Assembly (NCBI GenBank): GCA_905233385.1 | Contig: CAJOEH010000006.1 | Location: forward strand, 1-64,000 | Direction: 5' to 3' | Length of the DNA stretch: 64,000 nt | DNA from: an uncultured Oscillospiraceae bacterium | GTDB lineage: Bacteria; Bacillota; Clostridia; Oscillospirales; Oscillospiraceae | Shown: one piece after another, positions 27,529 through 60,553 of the stretch | Layout: every line of letters begins with the position of its first letter | How positions within the stretch are numbered: the first letter of the stretch is position 1 | Notes under the pieces: generated by a model | The model's database searches: none | What the model was told of the DNA's origin: nothing | Seen by the model: only the letters and a program-made list of their open reading frames with translations | Program-made: the position numbers and the translations under genes

Positions 27529-27538
27529 GTAATTACTT

Positions 27539-27638
27539 CTTCGGGGAGTCGGATGCTTCCGACTGAGATTGGGCGAGGGACGCCCTGACCCGCGAACCTG
27601 ATACGGATCATGCCGTCGTAGGGAAAGAGTGCATTGCC
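27539..27638 (+). ncRNA. TPP riboswitch (THI element)
   Basis: CGGGGAGTCGGATGCTTCCGACTGAGATTGGGCGAGGGACGCCCTGACCCGCGAACCTGATACGGATCATGCCGTCGTAGGGAAAG. Confidence 0.95.
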
Positions 27639-27639
27639 G

Positions 27640-27667
27640 CCGACGGATCGCATCCGTCGGTATTTTT
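27640..27667 (+). terminator. Expression-platform terminator of the TPP riboswitch
   Basis: CCGACGGATCGCATCCGTCGGTATTTTTCTT. Confidence 0.8.
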
Positions 27668-59320: not shown

Positions 59321-60282
59321 TGAAGCTCGTCATTCTGGACGCCTATCCGTCGAATCCCGGCGATCAGAGCTGGGACGCGCTGCGCGCCTTCGGCGAGCTG
59401 ACGGTCTACGACCGCACCGCGCCGGAGCAGGTGATCGAGCGCGTCGGCGACGCGGAGGTCGTCCTGCTCAACAAGACGCCGCTCGGCGCGGGGGTCTTCG
59501 AGGCCTGCCCGTCTCTTCGCCTCGTCAGCGTACTGGCGACCGGTTACAACATCGTCGATACGCAGGCGGCGCGGGCGCACGGCGTCACGGTCTGCAACGT
59601 GCCCGGCTATTCCACCGGCGCGGTCGCGCAGATGACCTTCGCCCTGCTGCTGGAGATCACGCAGCAGGTCGGCCTGCATTCGGCGGCGGTCTTCGCCGGC
59701 GATTGGCAGAACAACCCGGACTTCTGCTTCTGGCGCAAGCCCCTGACCGAGCTGGAAGGCAAGACGATGGGGCTGATCGGCTACGGCGCGATCGGCCGCG
59801 CGGTCGGGAACATCGCCCTCGCCTTCGGCATGAAGCTGCTCGTCACGGCGCGGCATGAGCGGCCGGTGCCGGACGGCGCGAAGTTCGTCGATTTCGATAC
59901 TCTGCTGCGCGAGTCGGATATCGTCTCCCTGCACTGCCCGCAGACGGCGGAGAACCTGCACATGATCGACGCGAGCGCGATCGCGAAGACGAAGGACGGC
60001 GCGATCCTGCTCAACACCGCGCGCGGCGGCCTGCTGGACGAGCGGGCGGTCGCGGACGCGCTGCAACGCGGCAAGCTCCGCGGCTTCGGCGCGGACGTGG
60101 TCTCGAAAGAGCCGATCGCCGCGGACAATCCGCTGCTTTCCGCGCCGAACTGCTTCCTCACGCCGCACATCGCGTGGGCGCCCTTTGAGACCCGCCTGCG
60201 CCTGCACCGGATCAGCGCGGACAACGTCCGGCTGTTCCTGGAAGGCACGCCGCAGAATGTGGTGAATGCCGAGCGTCCATAG
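59320..60282 (+). CDS. D-2-hydroxyacid dehydrogenase (glycerate dehydrogenase/hydroxypyruvate reductase-like)
   Basis: MGLIGYGAIGRAVGNIALAFGMKLL (Rossmann GxGxxG); LLNTARGGLLDERAVADAL; NCFLTPHIAWAPFETRLRL; overlaps the upstream stop (TGATG). Confidence 0.92.
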   Translation: MKLVILDAYPSNPGDQSWDALRAFGELTVYDRTAPEQVIERVGDAEVVLLNKTPLGAGVFEACPSLRLVSVLATGYNIVDTQAARAHGVTVCNVPGYSTGAVAQMTFALLLEITQQVGLHSAAVFAGDWQNNPDFCFWRKPLTELEGKTMGLIGYGAIGRAVGNIALAFGMKLLVTARHERPVPDGAKFVDFDTLLRESDIVSLHCPQTAENLHMIDASAIAKTKDGAILLNTARGGLLDERAVADALQRGKLRGFGADVVSKEPIAADNPLLSAPNCFLTPHIAWAPFETRLRLHRISADNVRLFLEGTPQNVVNAERP

Positions 60283-60472
60283 ACGCTCGGCAGCGATATT
60301 TGCCCTGCGCGCAAGCGATATGCACCAAAGGTGCGCGATATGTGCCGTTGGCACGCGATATGTTCGCTTCGCGAACGCGGGCAAATATCATATCGCATCG
60401 AGCTTAAGCGAGATATATCGCAGCGGCAGATGCCGCTATATCGCGTTTTGCATTGATGCAAAACATATCGCA
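60269..60472. repeat. Symmetric multi-hairpin array: 4 x GCGATAT then 4 x ATATCGC, separated by different short hairpins
   Basis: GCGATAT at 60293, 60315, 60335, 60355; ATATCGC at 60390, 60415, 60438, 60465; outer GATATTTGCCC/GGGCAAATATC; hairpins GCACCAAAGGTGC, GTGCCGTTGGCAC, GTTCGCTTCGCGAAC, AGCGGCAGATGCCGCT, GTTTTGCATTGATGCAAAAC. Confidence 0.9.
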
Positions 60473-60499
60473 AATACTCCCTGCTTGCACAAACAGACG

Positions 60500-60553
60500 A
60501 AAAATACCGACTGAAACGGGACTTGCATCCTTTCTCAGTCGGTATTTCTTTAT
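60500..60553. terminator. Bidirectional terminator
   Basis: AAAAATACCGACTGAAACGGGACTTGCATCCTTTCTCAGTCGGTATTTCTTT. Confidence 0.7.

Follow-up and report, generated by a model that had tools for sequence, protein, structure and literature searches.

A repeat array at a dehydrogenase stop codon in an uncultured Oscillospiraceae bacterium, probably a gene-less member of a family of mobile elements associated with IVP/S23 genes

We analysed a window of 64,000 nucleotides (positions 1 to 64,000 of the forward strand of contig CAJOEH010000006.1, assembly GCA_905233385.1) from an uncultured Oscillospiraceae bacterium. Towards the end of this window the gene of a D-2-hydroxyacid dehydrogenase (matching PF02826 and PF00389) runs into an element of about 205 bp. 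This consists of a 5' hairpin (H0), which supplies the stop codon of the gene, then four copies of the heptamer GCGATAT and then four of the inverted heptamer ATATCGC, with self-complementary spacers in between (Table 1). An initial annotation had described heptamer spacings of 22, 20 and 20 bp in the left half and 25, 23 and 27 bp in the right half, an outer pair of arms bracketing the left half, and an ordinary terminator separate from the array. All of this was confirmed, the arms GATATTTGCCC and GGGCAAATATC being perfectly complementary. Its statement that each spacer is self-complementary holds generally, but self-pairing of the first spacer (60300-60314) is imperfect, and the central spacer (60362-60389) combines a hairpin with the second of the two outer arms. 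As claimed, the stop codon lies inside a hairpin; this hairpin, however, is itself part of the element, which therefore starts with it (see below).

The heptamer alone is common in the window (14 observed, 8.9 expected); what is rare is the arrangement. A generic detector, which requires at least three copies of a 6-mer followed by at least three of its reverse complement, found the array as its sole match in the 64 kb and gave no match in ten simulated windows. RNA folding of 60260-60480 yielded -100.8 kcal/mol on the forward and -100.1 kcal/mol on the reverse strand (z = -5.9 and -5.6), and none of 200 shuffles was as stable on either strand. Any inverted array folds well on both strands, and thus folding energy alone cannot separate RNA from DNA. 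A reading as CRISPR was set aside, the spacers being short and self-complementary.

Comparison with sister species points to a recent insertion. The dehydrogenase can be aligned with that of the sister species as far as GTGGTGAAT, i.e. to about position 60267. In four of the sister species shown, this common end or its equivalent is directly followed by an own TGA or TAA, a few bases later by a terminator-like hairpin, and neither H0 nor the array was found at any sister-species site inspected. In the window, GTGGTGAAT is followed by the hairpin TGCCGAGCGTC/GACGCTCGGCA, which gives the TAG, then by the array and then by the terminator. As the sister species have no hairpin and no array and have a stop codon of their own at this place, the block is taken to be a recent insertion; several losses in the sisters would be a less simple alternative to one gain here. 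H0 is missing at the sister sites and begins at the same point here, and therefore came with the element, which places the start of the element at about 60267. The right end falls somewhere from 60471 to about 60500, a bracket set by the distance of the sister species (at most about 83% DNA identity).

The same plan, namely H0, four units, a central arm and four inverted units, was found in relatives. The genome itself holds two further full copies and one decayed copy. When named genomes were scanned with a core of 17 bases from the element, most of the matches listed were in rumen and gut Clostridia, and those in other phyla had at most two to three heptamers nearby and look like chance. A covariance model, R1, built from 39 copies including the one in the window, matched 41 of 119 genomes of the order (Oscillospirales), with up to 19 matches each, although the near symmetry of the element caused some places to be counted on both strands. 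The window copy scored 118 bits (E 7e-28) against R1, to whose building it had contributed. Similar GATAT-hairpin strings in other Clostridia, which the initial annotation had mentioned as having no assigned function, thus do exist across the order. A hairpin at the place of H0 was present in 77 of 93 family copies, compared with 46 of 930 shuffles. The copy in the window has all the features by which we define the family: H0, four heptamers, four inverted heptamers and co-varying spacers.

The structure is conserved whereas the sequence of the arms is not. RNAalifold on the 39 copies gave nested helices of GCGATAT with ATATCGC, which enclose the side hairpins, with 95% of the cells paired; this agrees with the single long fold with side hairpins that had been proposed. 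Double-sided changes occurred in 30 of 50 pairs, so that the arms vary while their complementarity is kept, and unit number and pairing are both preserved in the relatives. The covariation score was 0.381 compared with 0.126 after shuffling (0 of 500 shuffles as high) and fell to 0.03-0.09 once the partners were slid. In 49 canonical copies every spacer except the long central one forms a hairpin far above the shuffled rate. The first arm, which reads AAATCC in most copies and TTGCCC in the window, has two conserved partners, one in its own hairpin and one in the central arm before the first ATATCGC. Its variants AAATTC, AGATCC and AAATCT are compensated in both partners, and in the 11-bp alternative helix 99.5% of the cells are standard pairs, with double changes in all six variable pairs. 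The two pairings of the first arm are mutually exclusive. One subfamily without an open reading frame (ORF; L046, L053, L118, L131, L152, L156 and others) begins with an H0 of the type GCGTGTTATCC and has a long common right tail; this tail has a terminator-like hairpin of its own and ends in TTCTCCGCTAAGRACATCACCC, an imperfect inverted copy of H0.

A search of Rfam at gathering scores gave no match at the array site. In a permissive search the left half aligned to positions 1-77 of the 77 positions of Gut-1 (RF01706), with 38.4 bits (E 3.4e-6), which is below the gathering score of 50. Other copies of the array likewise match Gut-1 over its full length and below this score. Gut-1 matches were present in 51 of the 119 genomes, and many of them are the first half of full-length R1 matches (e.g. 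G073:C5, G039:C6). Gut-1 was described in 2010 from environmental (human gut) sequences only, as a likely noncoding RNA (Weinberg 2010, PMC2864571), and has been an orphan RNA candidate since then (PMC2864571). Like the element, it has four repeated words with hairpins between them. Unlike the element, it covers the left half only, its consensus has gUGAAAU four times in place of GCGATAT, i.e. another heptamer in the same plan, and its description contains no H0, no right half, no mobility and no link to the IVP gene (see below).

The flanks of about 95 copies revealed that the same ORF starts shortly after the array at eight loci. Two of these ORFs were tested, and both belong to PF05635, the 23S rRNA intervening sequence protein (IVP, also S23). 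We also surveyed the reverse direction, applying a sequence-agnostic array detector to the flanks of the IVP genes of the order. A strict array of four plus four units was found in the 420 nt upstream of 26 of 89 IVP gene matches and downstream of none of 87 (two genes were counted twice owing to a second match inside the same gene). The gap between array and gene is mostly 20-85 nt and the orientation is constant. With a looser count of repeated words the numbers were 45 of 90 upstream, 7 of 95 downstream and 5 of 98 elsewhere. R1 itself lies upstream of IVP at at least 13 independent places with gaps of 29-135 nt, as selected from the lists of IVP gene and R1 matches. By genome, 45 had both Gut-1 and IVP, 6 had only Gut-1, 14 had only IVP and 54 had neither (odds ratio (OR) 29, p 5e-14), whereas arrays did not co-occur with reverse transcriptase (OR 0.77, p 0.55) nor significantly with Y1 transposase (OR 1.8, p 0.13); these p-values ignore shared ancestry, and the contrast between the partners is more useful than any of them. 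Where a strict array is missing, many IVP genes are accompanied by a degenerate one or by tandem heptamers. In fuller copies H0 is followed by the left half, the right half and the IVP gene, and in some of them another left half comes after the gene. The initial annotation had missed this gene link, as well as the membership of H0, the insertion and the relation to Gut-1.

At four loci (L067, L122, L149, L276) the second left half-array directly follows the IVP stop codon. The right half would thus have two possible partners, and pairing with the later one would enclose the gene. In the genome of the window, one contig (C9) carries at about 41.0 kb (L159) a GAAATC-type array of four plus four units, an IVP gene and then another array, both arrays opening with the same hairpin CCAGAAAAAGCAGCCGAAAGGCTGCTTTTTTCAACGAAATCC. 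A third IVP gene, at about 32.0 kb of this contig (L158), has AATGCTC-type tandem heptamers upstream and inverted copies downstream, with no hairpins between them.

The heptamers upstream of IVP genes differ: GCGATAT, TGATAT, GAAATC, GTGAAG, GTGATG, AGTTAT and, in tandem, GTGAAT and AGAGAAG. When mapped on a tree of 95 IVP proteins, the heptamer class changed 20 times, compared with 57.7 times after shuffling (0 of 200 as low), with the classes defined after the sequences had been seen and one third of the rows unclassified. The IVP proteins linked to GCGATAT, including that of the genome itself, form a supported group drawn from several families. This match between heptamer and clade would fit specific recognition. 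Ten IVP homologues on plasmids and phage-like contigs were inspected by eye with no control set; in other phyla, tandem heptamers often lie next to the inspected IVP genes. The homologue on a Nostoc plasmid record is flanked as (TCGCAAT)4-IVP-(ATTGCGA)4, in Bernardetia a run of TTAGTGA lies beside the gene, and in Anabaena AAAAGTA-type repeats lie at a homologue, between the genes cas2 and cas1. Hairpin arrays are present on two gut phage-like contigs with a homologue. IVP genes were also seen inside defence loci, namely between hsdS and hsdR in Monoglobus (L280), drmD and pglX in Planktothrix (L284) and cas2 and cas1 in Anabaena (L285).

In 28 of 70 copies a stop codon of the same strand is found at -6 to +3 nt from H0, compared with 2 of 70 for the opposite strand and 45 of 2100 random positions. 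About ten copies lie in the loop of a terminator, their host flanks being complementary and carrying A- and T-runs; flanks with at least 10 complementary bases occurred in 8 of 78 copies compared with 8 of 922 mismatched pairs. This placement was not seen for the window copy. One count of the stems gave 1090 Watson-Crick pairs against 9 G-U and 16 A-C; a second gave 20 G-U compared with 21 A-C. Because G-U is not above A-C mismatches, and because some copies sit in loops of host hairpins, we lean mildly towards the view that the folded form may act mainly as single-stranded DNA or cruciform. The lean is only mild: a structure selected as RNA should tolerate G-U, yet control terminators gave a ratio of only 108:78, so that the comparison has little power. 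Individual copies inside host terminator loops, with the A-run on the left and the T-run on the right, are L154, L120, L138, L053, L046, L152, L147 and L129. Many IVP elements also begin directly behind the 3' end of a tRNA gene and a terminator-like hairpin (L178, L228, L236, L237, L243, L251, L254, L262 and others).

Taken at the level of sequence, insertion, dispersal, conserved alternative structures, and adjacency to and co-divergence with IVP make it likely that the block, which has no ORF and is probably non-autonomous, belongs to a family of mobile elements associated with IVP/S23 (PF05635). As a possible mechanism, IVP would bind the heptamers that the folded array presents, and this complex would promote the spread of the element. 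Copies without an ORF would then be moved in trans, and the two exclusive pairings of the first arm could switch between folded states. One member of the IVP family has been reported to be a homopentamer; the solved structural relative of the IVP of this genome is 2RLD. No transposase gene was seen beside the inspected copies, where IVP is found repeatedly, and no enzyme that cuts or joins DNA, such as a nuclease or recombinase, was identified for the family. Besides the limits given with the co-occurrence, tree and G-U figures, several points weigh against this interpretation. IVP was not detected in 6 of 51 genomes with Gut-1 and 3 of 41 with R1, and a strict array is absent from more than half of the IVP genes. 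In the window copy there is no IVP gene, the right end is only bracketed, and no target duplication was placed. Adjacency and co-divergence would also be expected if array and gene were inherited as one unit, and it is from sequence comparison that we infer binding of the heptamers by IVP and movement of the element.

Other explanations start from the same observations. The array could be a functional noncoding RNA or a 3'-UTR regulator (UTR, untranslated region) that, for example, stabilises the dehydrogenase mRNA or ends transcription. Strong covariation, sense orientation directly behind stop codons and the publication of Gut-1 as a likely noncoding RNA (PMC2864571) would agree with this. 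Yet the upstream genes are unrelated between copies, the sister genes manage without the array, copies are dispersed and multiple, the link is to IVP and G-U pairs are no commoner than A-C mismatches, so that we regard such a role as unlikely. It is rather improbable that the hairpins are mostly a by-product of template switching or hairpin correction during replication and that only the heptamers matter. The almost pure Watson-Crick pairing of stems whose arms are free to vary would be accounted for, as would the many IVP genes with tandem heptamers and no hairpins between them, but local correction alone would not be expected to produce a fixed number and order of units, or a further conserved partner for the first arm at a distance of some 80-90 nt.

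Movement by a known type of enzyme has also to be considered. Hairpin-based DNA elements are moved by Y1 (IS200/RAYT) and other hairpin-recognising transposases in other bacteria, and some subfamilies here have terminal inverted repeats. The block could hence be similar to a repetitive extragenic palindromic (REP) element or a miniature inverted-repeat transposable element (MITE), with the IVP link being secondary. Since Y1 transposase did not co-occur significantly with the arrays and the gene repeatedly seen beside inspected copies is IVP and not a transposase, this seems highly improbable. REP/RAYT elements and MITEs resemble the element in being short, dispersed, palindromic and gene-less; they differ from its multi-hairpin array of about 205 bp and from its linked partner. 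The terminal inverted repeats were seen by eye in ORF-less subfamilies A-C and were not found in the window copy. A retroelement, whose array RNA would be copied by a reverse transcriptase in trans, is suggested by the homology of IVP to Avd of diversity-generating retroelements (DGRs; PMC10053308) and by the transcribed places and sense orientation of the elements. We consider it quite improbable, as arrays and reverse transcriptase do not co-occur by genome and no reverse transcriptase (PF00078) was found in the genome of the window, which is 95% complete. DGR Avd is encoded beside the reverse transcriptase, in contrast to the IVP genes of this genome; likely cases of DGR Avd are G088:C25, G139:C6 and G105:C1.

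The window copy looks like a relative of Gut-1 and of the 23S rRNA intervening sequences. The latter replace the tetraloop of an rRNA helix, and in Coxiella heptamers GACAGAT precede the S23p ORF (PMC4990558). They share with the family an IVP ORF, present in its fuller copies, heptamers before this ORF, complementary ends, and placement in a hairpin loop, as in some copies. In contrast, the family lies at the ends of protein and tRNA genes and not in rRNA, has many copies with a hairpin array of four plus four units, and is mostly ORF-less. The window copy is sited at the dehydrogenase stop codon and contains no IVP/S23p ORF. We assigned it to the proposed family, and neither to Gut-1 nor to the 23S intervening sequences, because it lacks a defining feature of each. 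Short intergenic heptamer repeats are known as well, namely TAACTGA of Beggiatoaceae (PMC4679880) and the cyanobacterial short tandemly repeated repetitive (STRR) sequences. Unlike the element these are tandem and have no hairpins, and no link to IVP was found in the literature searched, the published repeats themselves not being part of the comparison. The heptamer repeats next to the IVP homologues on plasmids of Nostoc and Anabaena resemble them.

IVP/S23 proteins have no known function (PMC4990558), and which protein stands behind the intergenic heptamer repeats is an open question (PMC4679880). In the open-access literature we found no link between IVP and heptamer arrays beyond the heptamers of the Coxiella paper. 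The link found here joins IVP/S23 function and Gut-1, perhaps also the intergenic heptamer repeats; IVP gains a candidate binding target, and the questions become simple tests of binding and movement. If it is true, part of a mobile element has been annotated as a candidate RNA, and gene-end structure in gut Clostridia is partly of mobile origin. Going further, it is possible, though we would not call it probable, that IVP/S23 proteins act as specific partners for a class of mobile elements which is very widespread and has its architecture, not its sequence, in common. Such elements would contain several heptamers together with inverted ones, whether or not hairpins lie between them, with one heptamer for each IVP clade; they would sit in hairpin loops or at gene ends, and be moved by neither a known transposase nor a reverse transcriptase. 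The 23S intervening sequences and Gut-1 would belong to this class, and so, possibly, would the heptamer repeats of cyanobacteria and Beggiatoaceae.

Table 1. Features of the array and its surroundings (positions in the 64-kb window)
Feature	Position	Strand	Basis or remark
H0, 5' hairpin of the element, TGCCGAGCGTC CATA GACGCTCGGCA	60267..60292	+	perfect 11-bp arms
TAG stop of the D-2-hydroxyacid dehydrogenase, supplied by H0	60280..60282	+	sequence, profile match
Left heptamer 1 GCGATAT	60293..60299	+	
Left heptamer 2 GCGATAT	60315..60321	+	
Left heptamer 3 GCGATAT	60335..60341	+	
Left heptamer 4 GCGATAT	60355..60361	+	
Right heptamer 1 ATATCGC, inverted	60390..60396	+	
Right heptamer 2 ATATCGC, inverted	60415..60421	+	
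Right heptamer 3 ATATCGC, inverted	60438..60444	+	
Right heptamer 4 ATATCGC, inverted; last certain element base 60471	60465..60471	+	
First arm GATATTTGCCC	60295..60305	+	partial pairing inside spacer 1, or full pairing with 60379-60389
Central arm GGGCAAATATC, with which the first arm can pair instead	60379..60389	+	perfect complement of GATATTTGCCC
Side hairpin GCACC AAA GGTGC	60322..60334	+	sequence; corresponding helix co-varies
Side hairpin GTGCC GTT GGCAC	60342..60354	+	sequence; family alignment
Side hairpin GTTCGC TTC GCGAAC	60362..60376	+	sequence; family alignment
Side hairpin ATCGAGCTTAAGCGAGAT, imperfect	60397..60414	+	sequence; family alignment
Side hairpin AGCGGCAGATGCCGCT	60422..60437	+	sequence; family alignment
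Side hairpin GTTTTGCATTGATGCAAAAC	60445..60464	+	sequence; family alignment
Full-length Gut-1 match, below gathering score (left half)	60291..60366	+	38.4 bits, E 3.4e-6
Zone holding the right end of the insertion	60472..60500	+	sister genomes too distant to place the end
Host terminator of the dehydrogenase, outside the element	60502..60547	+	inverted repeat, arms 60502-60521 / 60528-60547

Elsewhere in the window, a TPP riboswitch was found at 27532-27641 (68.9 bits) and a 5' truncated match to 5S rRNA at 1-77.
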